Shown piece by piece: positions 11,118-56,270 of a DNA stretch of 64,000 bases. The notes under the pieces were generated by a model that was not told the DNA's origin, did no database searches, and saw only the letters and a program-made list of their open reading frames with translations. The translations under genes and the position numbers were made by a program. Source of the DNA: Domibacillus indicus (GTDB taxonomy: Bacteria; Bacillota; Bacilli; Bacillales; Domibacillaceae). The DNA is taken from NCBI RefSeq assembly GCF_000970685.1, contig NZ_LAJB01000007.1, positions 434,001-498,000 on the forward strand, written 5' to 3'. The first letter of the stretch is position 1. Each line of letters begins with the position of its first letter.

Positions 11118-14100
11118 TTACTTGCCGGCAGGCCGGGGCAGGTAGCCGGCATTCACTGCATAATCAAGCAGCCGATGGATAAATGCTTCATCTGGCTCGG
11201 GACAAACAATACCCTTTGCGCCCGCCGCTTTTGTTGTTTGAGGGCAGGCGTATGTGATCGGCGAATTTTTAGCGCCGTCTCCTTCTAAACCGGCAATAGC
11301 CAGCTCCACTCCCTCCCGGCTCTTGCGCTCATCCGAATATAGCCACGACTCAAACTCCGCCGGAGGCAGCAAATCAACTTGATAGCCATAAGATGCCAGA
11401 CTGCTGATTAACGCTGTATACGGCAGGCTGTGCGGATTGCATATGTGAAAAATCCCGCCGACTGCCTGATCGTCTGTCACGATTCCTCTGATGGCTTTGC
11501 TCGCATAGTCAACCATCGTGAAATCCATATTAGCTTGAACATCCGGTGCTTTTCCTAACAGAATAAAGCTTTTAATCATCCTGTAAACCGCATTGGCGTC
11601 AATATTTTTTTGAAAAATACCTGTTTTATGCTGGCAGCTGATATTTCCGGGACGTACGATGGTCACAGGCAGCCCATTTTGATAAAATGCTTCAACGAGC
11701 TTTTCCGATTCCAGCTTGCTGTTTGTATATAAACTGCTGACGGCTGGCGCTTCTGAAATCCGGTCGGACGCGAGGAAGGCGTCCCAATGGCCTTCCATTG
11801 CCAGATCTTCCGGGATACCGATCGTTGACACATAATGGAACCGGCAGCCATCCAGCCTGGCAGCCAGCTTTAATAAATGCTCTGTTCCTTTTACATTGGC
11901 GGAATGGAAGGACTCCTGATCACCAAAGTGCCGTACATCGGCACCGCAGTGAAGAATGGCATTCACCCTTGATTCGATCAGCTGTTTGTCTTCCACTGAC
12001 AGCCCTAGCTGCTCTTTACTGAAATCCCCCGCAACTATTTGGATTCGCTCGTCGGCATTATACATATTCCAAAAATCAGCCGGTGCATACATCTCAAGAG
12101 CCGATTTTACTTTTTGCTCTGCTTCCGCTCTGCTGCTGCCTCTGACAAGTACATAAATACGGGCGTTTGTTTCTTTTATAAGCTCTATCAAAAGATGCGA
12201 TCCCAGGTAGCCGGTTGCGCCTGTTAAAAGAATATCCGTCTGGTCCACAAGTTTCGATACCCGGGCTGCTTTCAGCTTTACCGGGTGCTCCACAAGCTTG
12301 ATTTCATCCGCTGGAAAAATGCTTTCCTGGCGTTCCTCTTTTGCACTGTCCGCTTTTTGAGCCAGCTCCTGAATCGTTGGATGCGTAAAAAAGTCGTTAA
12401 TTTTCAAAGCAGGAAAATCTTTTTTAAGCAGCGATAAGGCTCCCAGTACTTTTAAGGAATGGCCTCCCAGTTCAAAAAAGTTCTCATCCACTCCGACTGT
12501 ACGGATACCCAGGCTCTCCTGCCATGCTTCTGCAATTCTTTTTTCTGTATCTGTAACAGGCAGCTTTTTATCTCCCTCATTTGTTTGGGCAAGAGGCAGC
12601 GAGGATAAATACTTGCGGTCTACCTTGCCTGTTGGCGACAGCGGGATGGATGCCAGCTTAACAAAATAAGAAGGAACCATGTAAGGAGGCAGCTTCTCGG
12701 AAAGATATTCGATTAGTGTTTTTGAATCGATCGTCATATCATCCTTTGTTGAATAATAAGCAGCAAGAACCGTATCGCCATTCACTTCTTTTGTTACAAC
12801 TGCCGCGTTAGCAATCAGAACTGACTGAGCAAGCGCATCTTCAATTTCACTTAATTCTACACGGAAGCCGCGTATCTTGACCTGCAAATCTTTTCTTCCG
12901 ACAAATTCGATCTCTCCATCCGGCAGCATTTTCACTATGTCACCGGAACGATAAACCGTATCCTGGCTGAAAGGTACCTGAACAAAAGCGGCGGCTGTTT
13001 TTTCAGGCAGATTAATATAACCGGCTGACAGCCCTTCTGTTTCAATTAACAGTTCGCCTTCCACCCCAATAGGGCATAATTTCATGTTATCGTTCACAAT
13101 ATACGTTTTATAGTTGTGTACCGGCTTCCCGATCGGTATATTGATCACGCCTTCTTCCAGCCTGCCTGTTACTTTATAAAAGGTTGAGATGACCGTACAC
13201 TCTGTCGGACCATACAGATTTACCAGCTCAATCAGGCCAAATTTATCTTGAAACAAACGAACAACTTCCCCGGTCAGAGCTTCTCCGCAGACACCCCATG
13301 ATTTTATACCGGAAAAGCAGGCTGCTTCTTTCTCATCAGCATAAAGTGAAAATTGCTTTAACACACTTACCGGCACAGCAGGGATATATGTAATCCCCTC
13401 TCTTGTTACCATCTGTGCAAAGGAAGAAACGTCTACCCGTTCCGCTTTTGTAAGCAGATGAAGCCGCGCCCCTGTAAACATCATAGGACAGAGCTCTAAA
13501 AGAGAAGCGTCAAATGTCAGCGTATAAAACTGTGTCAGTACATCTTCAGAAGTAGTGGGAAAAATATCGGTTAATGCATACCCAAGCCCGACAATGCTTT
13601 TATGGGAAATTTTCACTCCTTTTGGATTTCCAGTCGAGCCGGATGTATAAATAATATAAGCAAGCTGCGTTTCCTCTGTGCCGTCAGAAAAAGGAGCTCC
13701 TTCCGCTTTGATTGCGCTGATCGGCACAATCGTTGTCTCCAGTCCGCCCAGCATTTCTTCAAGCTCTGCTGTATAAGCTTCCTGTGTGAGCACTGCTTTT
13801 GATGCAGAATCCTGAATAATGTACCGTGTTCTTGCTTTAGGATTGTCAGGGCTCAATGGCACATAAACAGCGCCAGCTTTAAGAATACCGAGCATGGCAG
13901 TGATCATTTCAACGCTCCGCTCCATGTAGACCGAGACATACTCTCCTTTTCGAATTCCGCTATCCTGCAAGTAACGGGCGATCTGGTTAGATCGGCTGTC
14001 CAGCTCCGCAAAGGTAACAGAACCGGCTTCAGACGAAAGAGCCGTTTGATCAGGATATAAACGGGCTGTTTCTGAAAAGACGGCATGCAATGTCCGGCCG

Positions 14101-16597: not shown

Positions 16598-16695
16598 CTT
16601 CCAGCTTCTTCGGCAGCCTGGCTGCCATAGCGTTATGCTTTAGGCCCACAGCTTTGCGTCCTTATCTTTCAATAAGTTTGCCCTTATCAGAAAAT
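16598..16695 (-). promoter_or_regulatory. Cyclic di-GMP-I (GEMM) riboswitch aptamer
   Basis: On the minus strand I read GGGCAAACTTATTGAAAG, AAGGACGCAAAGCTGTGG, GCCTAAAGC and GCTATGGCAGCCAGGCTGCC. The GGCAAAC...GGACGCAAAGC...CCTAA...GGCAGCCxGG(C/T)TGCC order is the GEMM-I consensus, including the tetraloop-receptor helix. It is followed by the terminator at 16542-16568 and the chemoreceptor gene. Confidence 0.92.
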
Positions 16696-31515: not shown

Positions 31516-31573
31516 CGCGCTCACCCTTTTTCTACATTGTAACAGGTTCTGTTATTTGCTAAAATGGACGAGA

Positions 31574-31655
31574 CCACATGGGGAGTCTTCGGGCTGAGAA
31601 CAGATACGATCTGGACCCATGGAACCTGTCGGATCATGCCGGCGCAGGGATGTGG
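31574..31655 (+). promoter_or_regulatory. TPP (thi-box) riboswitch
   Basis: CCACAT/ATGTGG closing stem, then GGGGAGTCTTCGGGCTGAGA, a variable helix, GGACCCATGGAACCTG and CATGCCGGCGCAGGGA. This matches the TPP aptamer (GGGG-AGC...GCUGAGA...GACCC..GAACCUGA..AUGCCAGCGYAGGGA). It precedes thiT by 44 bases. Confidence 0.95.
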
Positions 31656-31699
31656 ACTTTTTTCCTCTTTCTTCGCGTGCGGTAGAAAGGAGGAAAAAA
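31656..31699 (+). promoter_or_regulatory. SD-sequestering hairpin of the thiT leader
   Basis: TTTTTTCCTCTTTCT (about 31658-31672) can pair with AGAAAGGAGGAAAAAA (31684-31699), which contains the ribosome binding site of thiT. With TPP bound this hairpin should block initiation, so control is probably translational. There is no terminator-like stem. Confidence 0.7.
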
Positions 31700-39852: not shown

Positions 39853-40032
39853 TCTTCTTGTACTTTGTAACATGGCGGAAACGGGCCCAGCGCTGACCTG
39901 CAGAAAGCAAAGCCGCAGGCCCGCCGCTATCTTAAATTCTGTGTATTGCCACAAACTGGCCAATACATAAATCCGGCTGCCACCTAAAGGTTATTGTATA
40001 TTATTTTGAAAATCGATCCATACTAACAGCAT

Positions 40033-40119
40033 GGACTTGTAGCTCAACGGACAGAGCGGCCAATAGCTCCTTTAGATGATCTATTGTGTATCTTGTGGGT
40101 TCAACTCCCACCAAGTCCA
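40033..40119 (+). tRNA. tRNA-like gene with enlarged anticodon loop (pseudo-tRNA)
   Basis: 87 nt. Acceptor GGACTTG/CAAGTCC pairs perfectly (7 bp), D arm GCTC-AACGGACA-GAGC, T arm GTGGG-TTCAACT-CCCAC. Between D and T arms are 37 nt that do not fold as a normal anticodon arm. The best fold is stem CAATAG/CTATTG around a 14-nt loop: a CTCCTTT loop (anticodon CCU) plus seven extra bases AGATGAT. A type II fold with a variable stem AGATG/TATCT is an alternative. CCA is not encoded. It resembles the idea of the pseudo-tRNA 'tRNA-Other' of B. cereus. Not a standard decoding tRNA. Confidence 0.75.
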
Positions 40120-40172
40120 TAAAATATATAAACGAAACAGCGCTGACCAAAGAAAAATCAGGAGTGGCATAT

Positions 40173-40592
40173 ATGCTTTTTTTAAAAAGATTTTTTGTTT
40201 TATTACTCATCATCAATTCGCTAATTATATCGGCAGATCAAAACTATTTGAATGCTTTTGCTGACTCGCCCTCCTCCAATTCCCTTTCTTTTCCCGCAGG
40301 CGAAGAAGTAAAAGGTGCCTATTTACATATGAATACGCCTGAAAACCAGCTGATCATTCAAGTTAAGCCTATTGAGCAGCGAGTAGTTTTCAAAGAAGAT
40401 GAAATTGATCATTCCATCCAGCTTCCAAACGGAACGAAAGCTGTATACAGCTTTGGAAATCGGATCAATCGCTTATCGTTTGAAAAAGACGGATGGCAGT
40501 ATATATTAAACGCAAATAAGCGTGCCTCTGAAGTTATGGAGCTTGATATGCTCGCTGCCATTGCCAGCACTCTTATAAAAAACGGGCAATAA
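40173..40592 (+). CDS. Secreted hypothetical protein downstream of the tRNA-like gene
   Basis: 139 aa. N-terminal signal peptide (basic LKR, hydrophobic FFVLLLIINSLII, cleavage probably after AFA near residue 29) and a mature domain rich in beta strands (LIIQVKPIEQRVVFKEDE, GTKAVYSFGNRINRLSFEKDGWQYIL). No family recognised. CAGGAGTGG upstream of the ATG. It starts 53 bases after the tRNA-like gene on the same strand and may be co-transcribed with it. Ends at a hairpin shared with the convergent GH18 gene. Confidence 0.72.
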   Translation: MLFLKRFFVLLLIINSLIISADQNYLNAFADSPSSNSLSFPAGEEVKGAYLHMNTPENQLIIQVKPIEQRVVFKEDEIDHSIQLPNGTKAVYSFGNRINRLSFEKDGWQYILNANKRASEVMELDMLAAIASTLIKNGQ

Positions 40593-40623: not shown

Positions 40624-41736
40624 TTAATTTTCTTCCTTATTTAAAGCTTCTTTATAAAAATCCCATGTCTGGGCTTCTTCCAGACCGAGGCTCCAGTTCC
40701 CGGCTCCCTTTAAATTATATTTTTCGATGAGTGCCAGCTTTGCTTTTATAGACTGCTCATTTTCAAACCAGAGAGTGTAACGGCCCGGAGTTAAGGCAGT
40801 CCACTCCACGGTGATTGGTTCTTCATCAGCCGGAATAGAGAAAACCGCCCTGGCAGATTGCTGCTCCTCATCATAAGTGATTTCGCCATTATAGCTTTCC
40901 ACTATCTCATTCACCATATTAAGCGGAACGTGAATGCCGCGAATAGAGCCGTCTTCATTCCATAACCTTCCATAAAATGGAATGCCCAGCACTAATTTCT
41001 CAGGAGAAACCTCCTGGGATAGAGCATATTCAATTGATTTTTCAACAAAGGAAAGACTGGCGACCGGGCCGGACTTTTCGTGATCCTGGAAGTGCTCATC
41101 ATATGTCATCAACATTAAATAATCCGTATATTTAGCCAGCTCGGCATAATCATACGCTCCATGCCATCCGCTCGTCCAGCCTTCAGGATTTGCAGGGACA
41201 GCCACTGTAACGATTTTTTCTTCAGGCAATTTGCTTCTCAGCAGCTTAACCAGTTCCGTATAGCTGCTTCGATCTTTCTCGGTGACATACTCGATATCCA
41301 TATTCACTCCATCCAGCTCATACTCTTCTACTTCGGAGGCAATTTCGTCTGTCAGCTCTTCCCTGTTCTCCAGAGCAGCTCTGGCTTTTTCTGTATCCCA
41401 TCCGTCTGATAAAAAAGGAACGACTTTTATATTCCGTGCGTGCATTTCGTCTACAAATTCCTCGCTGACAATATCCTGGTTTAAAGAGCCCTCTTCGTCT
41501 AAACTAAAGTAAAAGGGCGATACCTCATGCAGGGTTCCCGTGGCCTGATCAACTTTTTCAATGTAGTCTACATAGCTTCCATCCGGTTTTCCATTGTAGA
41601 GATAAGCCATTACGTACTTTCCATCAGGGCTGTCATCTTTTTGTGTTTCTTCATCCCTCAAAAACTGACTGCTCATAATCCATATCACTCCTGAAACAGC
41701 AAGGATTACAGTCAGCCATTTCATGGGTTTATTCAT
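40624..41736 (-). CDS. Exported glycoside hydrolase family 18 protein
   Basis: 370 aa. N-terminal anchor/signal (WLTVILAVSGVIWIMSS), then a GH18 barrel: YELDGVNMDIEYV holds the catalytic DGxxxDxE (DGVNMDIE, intact Glu), TDYLMLMTYDEH and LVLGIPFYGRLW follow in family order. Similar to YaaH/YdhD-type cell-wall or exopolysaccharide glycosidases. It lies 56 bases downstream of the large deacetylase-glycosyltransferase gene on the same strand, probably the same operon, so it may trim the polymer made by that protein. Confidence 0.9.
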   Translation of the reverse strand: MNKPMKWLTVILAVSGVIWIMSSQFLRDEETQKDDSPDGKYVMAYLYNGKPDGSYVDYIEKVDQATGTLHEVSPFYFSLDEEGSLNQDIVSEEFVDEMHARNIKVVPFLSDGWDTEKARAALENREELTDEIASEVEEYELDGVNMDIEYVTEKDRSSYTELVKLLRSKLPEEKIVTVAVPANPEGWTSGWHGAYDYAELAKYTDYLMLMTYDEHFQDHEKSGPVASLSFVEKSIEYALSQEVSPEKLVLGIPFYGRLWNEDGSIRGIHVPLNMVNEIVESYNGEITYDEEQQSARAVFSIPADEEPITVEWTALTPGRYTLWFENEQSIKAKLALIEKYNLKGAGNWSLGLEEAQTWDFYKEALNKEEN

Positions 41737-41792
41737 GAAATGGCCTCCTCAATATCAGCCATGTCCTGGCTAAACGGTGCTTCCATTTTTCC

Positions 41793-44700
41793 TTAAGCTC
41801 CTCTTCTCTTTGCACTTTCCGCAACACTCTCGAGCGGAAGGCGCACATTTCCTGATCGGTCAAATTTGTTCCAGCCTACCATTACCCCTTTTAAAACAAA
41901 GGTAAAGGATTTCCAGATCGTAAACGTTAAAAACTGGCGATAAACAAAGCGCTGCAGGAACAGCCATATTAAAGGCCTTGCGCTGACTTTTTCCAATTTA
42001 AAAGAATAGTAAGCAACCAGCATGTCCAGCAGCAGAAAAGCAGAATAAAAAGCTAAAATTTTAGGGGCATCTCCGAAAAGACCAATAATAAACACGATAT
42101 CTGCTAATGGCGCCAGCGCCTGCAGTCCATATTGCGACCACATATTGGGCAGGCCAATAAAGCCGAGTGTTTTTTGTTTTGAGTTAAACAGGGCGCCTCT
42201 GTGCTTCCATAAACACTGCAAAATACCGTAAGACCAGCGGAACCGCTGCTTAATAAATGTTTTCATATCCTCCGGCGCTTCTGTGTATGCGTAGGCATTC
42301 GGCTCATACTTAACACGGTAGCCGTTTCTTAAAACCTGTATTGTAATATCTGTATCTTCCGCAAGTGTGTCCTCTGCAAAGAAACCGGCTTCTTCGACAG
42401 CGCTTTTCCGCCATGCGCCGATGGCTCCCGGAACGACTGTGATCGCATTTAATTCATCAAACGCCCGCTTTTCCAGATTAAAGCCGGTAACATATTCTAC
42501 GTGCTGCCAGGTTGTCAGAAGGTTCCGTACATTTCCGATTTTAACATTCCCCGAAACAGCCGCAACCTGTTCATCGGCAAAATAACTGGCGAGCAATGAA
42601 ATCGAATTAGAGGCAATGGATGTATCAGCATCAAGAATAATAATAACTTCGCCTTTTGCATCCTTGAATCCTCTATTAATGGCGGAAGACTTTCCTCCAT
42701 TCGCTTTTACAATTAGCCGGACTCTTTCATCGCTGCTGAAAGCCGTTCTTACTACTTCTGCTGTTCGGTCGGAGGAGCCATCGTCCACCACCATAATCTC
42801 AAAATTTTCATAATCGCTTTTTAAAATGGAATGAACTGTTCCTTCAATGACCTTTTCTTCATTATATGCCGGGATAATCACCGTTACAGCGGGCTGGTAA
42901 TCGGGATCAATTTTTCGTTTTTGATAGTTCTTTCGATGCCGGCTGCTGAAGAAAAGCAAAAATAAAAGTCTTACAATACCGAAAATGATCGCTCCTGTAA
43001 AAAAGACCACACTGAATTTTGCCAGGAAGCTATACATGCTGCTGGCGATTTTATAAAAAACCATGTATATGCTGGCATCATTTTGAACAGGAGGCATAAT
43101 TTCCGACTGACTTTTCCCCATCAAGCTGCTTACTGTTACAAATGTATAGCCTTCTTTTCTCAGTTCGTCAATAATTTTTGGCAAAGCTTCTACTGTAATA
43201 GAACGGTCTCCGCCTGCATCGTGAAGCAATAATATATTGCCTCTATCCACGTTTGATACGGCAGTTTCTACAATCTGTCCGGCTGAATTTGCTCCCCAGT
43301 CCCGCGTGTCAATTAATGAACCAACCATATGGTAGCCCATATTTTGAGCAGTTAAAATCGGTCCCAGCTCATTAGGAGCATAATCCGCATCCGTTGTATA
43401 AGGAGGGCGGAAGAGACTAGTAGAATGACCTGTTGTTTGCTGAATCAGCCATTGCGTGGCATTCAGTTCTGCTTCAATCATCCACGGGCTGTCTTCCTCG
43501 ATATTCGTATGGCTGAAGGTGTGGCTTCCGATATCATGCCCTTCTCTTTTAATGCGCGCAGCAATATCTGGATAAAGGGCGGTCTGCTTTCCAAGTACAA
43601 AGAAAGTCGCCGGCACTCCTTTTTCACTTAAAATATCAAGAATTTTTGGTGTGTAGAGCGGATCAGGCCCATCGTCAAAGGTAATCGCAATTTTTTTGTC
43701 TGTTGAATCGGCGTGTCTTTCAACAAAACGGTGAACCGGAAACTCCATATAGGTTTGTTTATCAATAAACCCATTCCCATCCAAATGAATGGTTCTTGAA
43801 CCTTTGCCGGTATTTTCTGAAAATGTGATTACTTCACCAGAACCAGTATCAGATAGCGACACAAGGTTCTCGATGGTTTTCAGCTCATCTGCCTGCTGTG
43901 TAATAGTTCCTTCATTTTTTAAAAGGCTCCATATCCCCTTTTCCTCGAAGCCGAGTGAACGAATGGCTACACCTCTGGCTCCCTGATCAAGCCCCATTTT
44001 AATTTGATTGTACGAAGTGACTCCATCGAGAAACCAGACAATATGATTTTCATTGTTTTCTTTATAGCGCAAATATGGATTGCGGCTGTTTTCATCCCAT
44101 TGGACTGTTAAGTTAGATTCCGAAGCCATTTTCATGATTTCTTCGTATGACAGCATTTTTGCAGGTTCATTGCTGTTTTCTATCCAGTCATAACCAATGT
44201 TGGCTATGCCAAGAATTAATTTATCAGCAGGGATTGGAAGGTCTTTTAACATTTTCTGTGTCCAGCCGGCAGAAGCAACCGGTCCTGCCTCACTGCTTTC
44301 ATAATGTTCATCATAGGCTGTTACAATAATTCGGTCTGCAAAAGCAGATAATTGTTCAAAATCATACGGTCCTCCTTCAGGAGTAGCCGTTATTATAATC
44401 TGCAGGCCGCTCTCTTTGAAGGGTATGGATAACTCTTTTACAAACTCGTTGACAGCATTTTTGTCTTCCTCGGGTATTCCGCTAAAATCCAAATTAATTC
44501 CTTGATACTGGTCCTTTTGCACCTGGTCATGAACATTTTTCACAAGCTCTCCCCTGAGTTCCGTTGACTGTAGAGCTTTCTGCATCATTTGAATATCTTC
44601 AGGCTCTTCGAGTTCAAAAGCCGGTATTATTTTTATGTTTTCCTTTCTCGCAACGGCATCAACTTTCTTTTCCGCTTCCTTCTTGATCGTCCCTTCAGAG

Positions 44701-45140
44701 TTTATGTAATACCAATTGGGAATTATCACATCGAGTGAATCAATATTTTGCTTTAGAGAGCCCTGGCTGCTCGTATTATCTCGAAGATAAAACCCATATG
44801 TTTCACTGGCTTCGTTTTTAGGAATAGAGGCTGCTCTGTATTGATGCTCTGCTACAAAAGGCGGTGAACTTTCAGCTTCATTATTCAGCGGCTCCTGGAC
44901 TGCTTTCAGTTCTCTGTCAAAATTAACAGGGGTTACATTAGGGTCATCAAATAAGCTGGACGTAATAACGGCAGTAACAGTACTAAGAAATAAAACGGTT
45001 AAAACTAAGACCAAAACCGATACTGGCCAGCGCCGGCCAGTATCATCGTGAAAAATAAATTTCTCTTTTGCATAGTTGCTGTACGGCTTTTCTTGCCCCC
45101 TTTTTTTGAGAGTCAAAAAACTAACCATTTTCTTAACCAA
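41793..45140 (-). CDS. GH18-like / polysaccharide deacetylase / GT2 fusion protein
   Basis: 1115 aa membrane protein for making and modifying an exopolysaccharide. One N-terminal helix (about 40-62), an external GH18-like domain (about 110-415), a NodB deacetylase (KKIAITFDDGPDPLYTP near 485, GSHTFSHTN metal site, FRPPYTT), a membrane helix (about 710-730), and a GT2 synthase of the cellulose/PNAG-synthase type (VTVIIPAYNEE, VVDDGSSD, ILDADTS, QRFRWSYGILQ) with several C-terminal helices. The GH18 motif reads GINLDFSG: the catalytic Glu is Ser (about residue 220), so that domain is probably non-catalytic. TTG at 45140 chosen because AAAGGAG is eight bases upstream. SinR-like boxes lie upstream. 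Confidence 0.92.
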   Translation of the reverse strand: MVKKMVSFLTLKKRGQEKPYSNYAKEKFIFHDDTGRRWPVSVLVLVLTVLFLSTVTAVITSSLFDDPNVTPVNFDRELKAVQEPLNNEAESSPPFVAEHQYRAASIPKNEASETYGFYLRDNTSSQGSLKQNIDSLDVIIPNWYYINSEGTIKKEAEKKVDAVARKENIKIIPAFELEEPEDIQMMQKALQSTELRGELVKNVHDQVQKDQYQGINLDFSGIPEEDKNAVNEFVKELSIPFKESGLQIIITATPEGGPYDFEQLSAFADRIIVTAYDEHYESSEAGPVASAGWTQKMLKDLPIPADKLILGIANIGYDWIENSNEPAKMLSYEEIMKMASESNLTVQWDENSRNPYLRYKENNENHIVWFLDGVTSYNQIKMGLDQGARGVAIRSLGFEEKGIWSLLKNEGTITQQADELKTIENLVSLSDTGSGEVITFSENTGKGSRTIHLDGNGFIDKQTYMEFPVHRFVERHADSTDKKIAITFDDGPDPLYTPKILDILSEKGVPATFFVLGKQTALYPDIAARIKREGHDIGSHTFSHTNIEEDSPWMIEAELNATQWLIQQTTGHSTSLFRPPYTTDADYAPNELGPILTAQNMGYHMVGSLIDTRDWGANSAGQIVETAVSNVDRGNILLLHDAGGDRSITVEALPKIIDELRKEGYTFVTVSSLMGKSQSEIMPPVQNDASIYMVFYKIASSMYSFLAKFSVVFFTGAIIFGIVRLLFLLFFSSRHRKNYQKRKIDPDYQPAVTVIIPAYNEEKVIEGTVHSILKSDYENFEIMVVDDGSSDRTAEVVRTAFSSDERVRLIVKANGGKSSAINRGFKDAKGEVIIILDADTSIASNSISLLASYFADEQVAAVSGNVKIGNVRNLLTTWQHVEYVTGFNLEKRAFDELNAITVVPGAIGAWRKSAVEEAGFFAEDTLAEDTDITIQVLRNGYRVKYEPNAYAYTEAPEDMKTFIKQRFRWSYGILQCLWKHRGALFNSKQKTLGFIGLPNMWSQYGLQALAPLADIVFIIGLFGDAPKILAFYSAFLLLDMLVAYYSFKLEKVSARPLIWLFLQRFVYRQFLTFTIWKSFTFVLKGVMVGWNKFDRSGNVRLPLESVAESAKRRGA

Positions 45141-45178
45141 GAAAAACACTCCTTTTGCCGATAATTAAACCTCGCTTT

Positions 45179-56196: not shown

Positions 56197-56270
56197 CGTC
56201 CCAGATAGGAATCGAACCTACGACCTGCAGCTTAGGAGGCTGCTGCTCTATCCTGCTGAGCTACTGGGAC
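56197..56270 (-). tRNA. tRNA-Arg (CCU)
   Basis: 74-nt cloverleaf on the minus strand: acceptor GTCCCAG/CTGGGAC, D arm GCTC..GAGC, anticodon arm GCAGC-CTCCTAA-GCTGC (anticodon CCU), T arm GTAGG-TTCGATT-CCTAT, discriminator G. CCA not encoded. Its loop CTCCTAA is close to CTCCTTT in the tRNA-like gene at 40033. Confidence 0.95.

Follow-up and report, generated by a model that had tools for sequence, protein, structure and literature searches.

Among the 64,000 nucleotides of Domibacillus indicus DNA analysed here (the window), the stretch at 40033-40119 raises the question of what a tRNA-like gene with an altered anticodon arm might be for. A sequence-only reading had seen that the acceptor, D and T arms pair and that a 14-nt loop sits in the anticodon position, both of which pairing and RNAfold bear out. 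It had proposed either a CCU anticodon followed by a 7-nt insertion, perhaps in a tRNA gene disrupted by that insertion, or a retained non-decoding tRNA-like RNA. The last of these proposals has held up: relatives of the element are conserved with compensatory changes, and the locus is almost certainly a conserved non-decoding RNA gene. The answers that we give below to the further questions, when the RNA is made and what it does, are of decreasing firmness.

Fold of the element and its relation to ordinary tRNAs

The element at 40033-40119 is a real tRNA-like gene. It matches the Rfam tRNA model (RF00005) over exactly these coordinates with 44.4 bits (threshold 29), the lowest of 83 Rfam tRNA matches in the genome, the next lowest scoring 49.7. 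ARAGORN places a tRNA at 40032-40120 and gives it the anticodon Ile(AAT). Two covariance models of the element and its relatives, R1 and R2, score it at 106.1 and 95.9 bits, respectively, versus 37.2 bits under R1 for the tRNA-Arg of the window. Its acceptor (GGACTTG/CAAGTCC), D (GCTC/GAGC) and T (GTGGG/CCCAC) stems pair in full, and the 14-nt loop is closed by CAATAG/CTATTG; RNAfold adds two pairs at the foot (G27-U and C28-G, with one U bulged) and two within the loop. The predicted energy is -29.7 kcal/mol versus -20.0 +/- 3.0 in shuffles (z -3.2). The parts of the gene are as follows.

40033..40119, + strand: putative non-decoding tRNA-like RNA, 87 nt including base 73 (A), no CCA encoded; matched by models R1 and R2
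40033..40039, + strand: 5' strand of the acceptor stem, GGACTTG; partner strand at 40112-40118
40042..40057, + strand: D arm, GCTC-AACGGACA-GAGC; all four stem pairs invariant in the family alignment, partly by construction (17 of 57 members are known only from a scan pattern that fixes the D arm)
40059..40089, + strand: replacement of the anticodon arm, GC + CAATAG / 14-nt loop / CTATTG + bulged T + GT, from RNAfold, free folds and covariation
40067..40080, + strand: apical loop, CTCCTTTAGATGAT; sequence and length vary among relatives
40090..40094, + strand: 5-nt variable region, ATCTT, of normal length for a type I tRNA
40095..40111, + strand: T arm, GTGGG-TTCAACT-CCCAC; pairing conserved in the family alignment
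40112..40119, + strand: 3' strand of the acceptor stem, CAAGTCC, and discriminator A; base 73 varies across the family

The bona fide tRNA-Arg(CCU) that the earlier reading had placed at 56197 is indeed a normal tRNA (56197-56270) by both ARAGORN and Rfam, and ordinary tRNAs cover all 20 amino acids in the genome (30 fetched loci plus the window). We considered and rejected several identities for the element. A damaged tRNA-Arg, with CCU and an insertion, is disfavored because the genome's tRNA-Arg(CCU) matches the family consensus at 24 of 38 core positions, below tRNA-Ile2(CAT), the nearest ordinary tRNA of the genome, at 27 of 38 against a family consensus; the same core comparison with the genome's ordinary tRNAs yields no clear parent. 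An ordinary decoding tRNA would have a 5-bp stem with a 7-nt loop, a combination present in none of 57 folds read by eye; the ordinary features that are kept are the acceptor, D and T arms and the 5-nt variable region. As to tmRNA, ARAGORN calls a tRNA rather than a tmRNA in the window, and the third acceptor pair is A-U. A tRNA of phage or plasmid origin found no blastn match at E 0.001 among 50,697 phage and 72,556 plasmid records.

A family with altered anticodon arms

The sequence-only reading had suggested looking for the same element in related genomes, and it is there. BLAST with a 101-nt query found it in 8 of 13 Domibacillus genomes. The 11 further genomes in the family sample were all negative, which leaves 8 of 24 there, and across the order the count was 20 of 397 genomes. 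Model R2, built from 23 of the sequences found by BLAST, gave matches of at least 72 bits in 31 of the 397 genomes, distributed over 10 families (strict filters; families counted from the table). Five more genomes (G283, G359, G153, G265 and G243; G numbers denote genomes, and L numbers loci or contigs of relatives, L001 being the window) scored 56-71 bits and, inspected individually, have other blind arms; below these lie tRNA-type matches at about 54 bits and less. The named scan returned 30 contigs with matches, from Domibacillus, Rossellomorea marisflavi, Robertmurraya, Neobacillus, Pseudoneobacillus, Cytobacillus, Peribacillus glennii, Niallia taxi, Litchfieldia salsa and several Bacillus species, together with one record labelled Paenibacillus. 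Of the 25 contigs rescored with R2 (the Domibacillus contigs L076, L082, L085, L087 and L095 being left out), 24 reached at least 69.9 bits. A sample of the class held two carriers among 398 genomes, both from the element's order, to which at least 22 of the 398 belong. Within Domibacillus, presence is patchy: five of the 13 genomes have no BLAST match, one of them only 77% complete, and no remnant lies within 1.5 kb on either side of speD in the non-carriers G002, G003 and G008.

In all, 65 model matches collapse to 58 distinct sequences and to 57 members once L089 is dropped, a Phycisphaeraceae MAG whose match (54.8 bits) is an ordinary-looking tRNA; L089 was removed before the counts and is still included in the 58-row alignment and the 58 gene contexts described below. 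Outside the anticodon arm the 57 members are tRNA-like throughout, and most are 83-89 nt long. The model alignment (58 rows, L089 among them) has 98.2% of its cells paired, with 18 of 24 pairs changed on both sides, including all seven acceptor pairs in some member and seven of the eight pairs of helix 3, the replacement for the anticodon arm. Covariation is 0.411 in this 58-row alignment versus 0.181 in shuffles, and slid controls do not exceed 0.086. Since the alignment was fitted to a structure model, free folds serve as the independent check. When the segment after position 26 is folded alone, with no alignment, it forms 6-14 pairs (median z -2.5 versus dinucleotide shuffles), and in 48 of 57 folds a single nucleotide bulges from the 3' strand just above a foot of 2 bp. 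The usual arm, then, starts with this foot and bulge, continues as a longer stem that covaries and ends in a variable loop. The variable region measures 5 nt in 54 of the 57 members. The acceptor strand GGACTTG occurs in 39 of 57, a count partly biased by the 17 members that come only from a scan demanding it, and the rest have 11 other forms.

The loops differ in length and sequence even within Domibacillus, so there is no conserved anticodon; ARAGORN assigns Ile, Ser, Ala/Gly or other anticodons to family members. Since relatives in 10 families share the type of arm with unrelated loops, the altered anticodon arm is an old trait, and this disposes both of the proposed CCU anticodon with its 7-nt insertion and of a tRNA gene disrupted in place. 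The start of the loop in the window, CTCCTTT (40067-40073), resembles the anti-Shine-Dalgarno core, and CTCCTT is present in G009 as well. At the tip of the arm, relatives from other genera appear to share an 8-nt motif resembling TCAYCGNA, carried on stems that differ. Other parts of the tRNA vary too. Base 73 is T in 35 members, A in 10, G in 6 and C in 6, and CCA is encoded in 2 of the 57 and in none of the other 55. The GG of the D loop and C56 are both kept in 35 members and both lost in 14, whereas GG alone is lost in 8 and C56 alone in none, so that loss of the one is coupled to loss of the other (Fisher p 4e-8, kinship ignored).

Blind arms of other kinds, short or different in build, occur in more distant Bacillales (L060 and L062-L066), a hint that the class may extend further. 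L060 has two similar blind copies 11 kb apart, at 1762-1833 and 12862-12933, the second of which has no regular arm. Tracts at L063 1528-1603, L064 1499-1574 and L066 1520-1589 contain, in other bacterial families, tRNA-like genes with 5-8-bp arms, 5-nt loops and no standard anticodon loop. In L065, a tRNA-SeC called by ARAGORN lies about 300 nt away from a tRNA-like gene whose arm has 4 bp and a 5-nt loop (1256-1352, - strand, and 1651-1719, + strand); the tRNA-like gene has a sigma-G-like box 21 nt upstream.

Promoter and gene neighborhood

The consensus recognized by the forespore factor sigma-G is GHATR-N17/18-CATXHTA. Judged by sequence, the promoter upstream of most family members, the window's included, is of this type, and transcription by sigma-G in the forespore is very probable. 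In the window, the two boxes together agree with the consensus at 12 of 12 positions.

39996..40000, + strand: -35-like box GTATA of sigma-G (forespore) type, with an 18-nt spacer to the -10 box
40019..40025, + strand: -10-like box CATACTA, 7 nt ahead of base 1

Across the family, the boxes read G[TAC]ATA-N17/18-CATACTA or close to it and end 5-8 nt ahead of base 1. Scores of at least 10 of 12 at this distance are found in 41 of 57 members, or in 33 of 48 after upstream regions alike at 65% or more are collapsed, versus 0.9 on average and 5 of 57 at most in dinucleotide shuffles of the upstream regions. As controls, a score of at least 10 is reached by 3 of the 69 ordinary tRNA genes in the genome and at 595 (0.9%) of the 64238 positions in the named loci. 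In the -35-like box of the 33 good-scoring representatives, G is present in 30, A as the third base in 32, T in 33 and the last A in 32. The other 16 of the 57 members have no good box at the fixed distance. L017, L024, L025 and L028 have boxes 16-22 nt upstream and hence a short leader; the distant relatives L060 (two copies), L062, L063, L064 and L065 have sigma-G-like boxes 17-42 nt upstream, and L061 and L066 have none upstream. The sigma-A consensus is not enriched upstream of the family; the window has one weak match, 9 of 12, at 39977-40004. Genes for small acid-soluble proteins (SASP) in 11 carrier genomes back this use of the consensus: 17 of 30 upstream stretches score at least 11 versus 5.7% of simple shuffles (9 of 30 in a shorter upstream search), and one such gene in G000 has GCATA-N17-CATACTA. 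Further backing comes from C. difficile, where a conserved A downstream of the -10 element is reported to set sigma-G boxes apart from those of sigma-F (PMC3789822).

The distance of the -10 box probably puts the start of transcription on base 1 or no more than about 2 nt from it, which would make the RNA leaderless. The gene for sigma-G itself discriminates little. By our own reading, sigG has strong matches in all 31 carriers but also in nearly all genomes; it is clearly absent in 15 of 397, none a carrier, where about 1.2 would be expected among carriers by chance, so the association is weak. In 29 of the 397 genomes the sigG match falls under the curated cut-off.

Downstream of the element, 53 bases away, lies a protein gene with which the sequence-only reading had suggested co-transcription.

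40173..40592, + strand: small putative secreted protein, 139 aa, with no Pfam match; outside the conserved unit

That suggestion stands in part. Read-through into this gene is possible in the window genome, as one scan finds no terminator on the + strand of the gap; a laxer scan flags a weak hairpin with a T run at 40161-40177, which overlaps the gene's ribosome-binding site. As a property of the family it fails: a homologue lies downstream in only 3 of 58 contexts, all Domibacillus (G007 and G012 among them). More generally, there is no conserved neighbor or operon, the commonest adjacent gene family occurring in 5 of 58 contexts, many of which span only 1.5 kb. Neighbors include a LacI-type regulator, an MFS transporter, an SRAP peptidase and YugN; a link to YugN was discarded, being seen only in G000 and G007. 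Related species often share neighbors, and a few neighbors are common across genus names (e.g. L071 and L081), consistent with vertical descent inside groups. Terminator-like sites lie within 120 nt downstream in 21 of 57 members versus 7 when shuffled once. Because adjacent genes vary and terminator-like sites follow, the family RNA is most likely a stand-alone gene.

Elsewhere in the window, the tract at 40624-45149 (- strand) holds a GH18-family protein next to an 1118-aa reading frame, by eye an apparent fusion of parts resembling a glycoside hydrolase, a polysaccharide deacetylase and a family-2 glycosyltransferase. A c-di-GMP-I riboswitch (16609-16692, - strand, 84.2 bits) and a TPP riboswitch (31569-31667, + strand, 65.4 bits) both score above the Rfam threshold.

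Possible functions and known systems

Because the family has no usable anticodon and mostly a forespore-type promoter, its RNA probably has a non-decoding job in the developing spore. The overall reading that we favor, and regard as probable, is a stand-alone, leaderless, non-decoding tRNA-like RNA of the forespore, made by sigma-G and acting as a tRNA mimic. RNA polymerase with sigma-G would transcribe the small gene in the developing forespore, and with the start so close to base 1, RNase P should be unneeded. The RNA would fold as a tRNA core with the anticodon arm swapped for another, usually longer, hairpin, and with that arm replaced it would read no codons. RNase Z would cut the 3' end and CCA would then be added, in keeping with the 55 members that encode none. 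In the forespore or spore, the RNA may act through its acceptor, elbow and T-arm side, occupying a tRNA-binding factor and carrying no amino acid to codons. Such a role as decoy or regulatory ligand is a tentative guess, since no partner gene was found among the neighbors.

Two other modes of action have been weighed against this guess. Within the forespore, the RNA could be aminoacylated and act as donor for a non-ribosomal transferase that serves peptidoglycan, a lipid or a small peptide, in the manner of staphylococcal tRNA-Gly variants. The widespread GGACTTG acceptor (with the bias noted above), the intact T arm and the absence of the D-loop GG in 22 of 57 members, a change known from cell-wall tRNAs, are all in keeping with this idea, but the spread of base 73 over all four nucleotides is unlike a fixed synthetase identity, and no transferase was recognized among the neighbors examined. 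We consider this improbable; the free variation of the discriminator base makes us prefer a decoy or regulatory ligand to an aminoacyl donor. Alternatively, the tRNA core could be a stabilizing scaffold for a base-pairing small RNA, like Bvs196, whose apical loop pairs with target mRNAs in the forespore. The loop is exposed and species-variable, and CTCCTT in G000 and G009 could pair with Shine-Dalgarno sequences. However, loops are not conserved within one genus (G012 keeps only GATAAA), and conservation resides in the tRNA part, with no conserved seed. Conservation of the tRNA side but not of the loop favors a tRNA-binding partner over loop base-pairing, which we regard as unlikely, if less so than aminoacyl transfer.

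The remaining alternatives deny the RNA a job of its own. As processing punctuation or leader of the secreted-protein gene, it would draw on the short gap, the scan that finds no + strand terminator there and the homologues downstream in G007 and G012; elsewhere, however, the downstream genes are unrelated and often on the opposite strand, and several members have a terminator-like site right after the RNA, which makes this role very improbable. It is hardly credible that the element is an ordinary tRNA gene decaying as a pseudogene, or one that a small insertion has broken. Patchy presence, the variable loop, base 73 and elbow and the weakest tRNA match in the genome could be so explained, but stems are kept with compensatory changes across 10 families, the promoter box is kept at a fixed distance and the nearest ordinary tRNA agrees with a family consensus at only 27 of 38 core positions. 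Variation of base 73, elbow and loop would also fit slow decay, as would the second L060 copy with its irregular arm.

If the forespore reading is right, genes that tRNA finders report as odd tRNAs are a set of forespore RNAs, in which the tRNA fold has been freed from decoding and tied to spore development, and they offer a handle on how the spore stores and restarts its translation machinery. Such genes should not be counted as decoding tRNAs, as ARAGORN forces anticodons on them. Going further, one could imagine a general class of spore-made "blind" tRNAs, transcribed leaderless by sigma-G, that park a translation component (ribosome, EF-Tu, synthetase or tRNA nuclease) in the dormant spore; this extension we hold as doubtful.

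Several known RNAs share parts of this picture. Staphylococcal tRNA-Gly variants serve cell-wall bridges, avoid the ribosome and have an altered D-loop GG; the likeness lies in these last two features, whereas in the staphylococcal RNAs the anticodon arm is normal and the amino acid identity is fixed. The tRNA-like domain of tmRNA, like the element, joins the upper half of a tRNA to a long helix in place of the anticodon arm. However, tmRNA lacks a proper D arm and has an Ala-type G-U acceptor pair as well as an mRNA part, whereas the 87-nt element includes a D arm and its third acceptor pair is A-U. In the literature searched (few subscription papers, no bioRxiv preprints; PMC4383634 included), we found no description of a tRNA-like family such as this one. 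The sequence-only reading had pointed to the pseudo-tRNA tRNA-Other of B. cereus, and both are Bacillales tRNA-like RNAs outside translation. However, tRNA-Other has a Trp anticodon in the standard position, belongs to larger RNAs for which sigma-A and sigma-B promoters are predicted, responds to iron and has Fur sites in its larger transcript (PMC3399842), whereas the family has no standard anticodon arm, a sigma-G-type promoter and a probably leaderless start. The tRNA-Other primers as printed there, read by eye, also spell a different acceptor strand, so kinship with it is not upheld. The forespore small RNAs Bvs196 and CsfG are under the forespore sigma factors F and G (PMC9147052); the family shares this tie, in its case by promoter consensus. 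Bvs196 is reported to bind mRNAs and, at 294 nt, carries no tRNA-like description in the part of that source consulted, whereas the family's RNAs are far shorter and have a tRNA fold.
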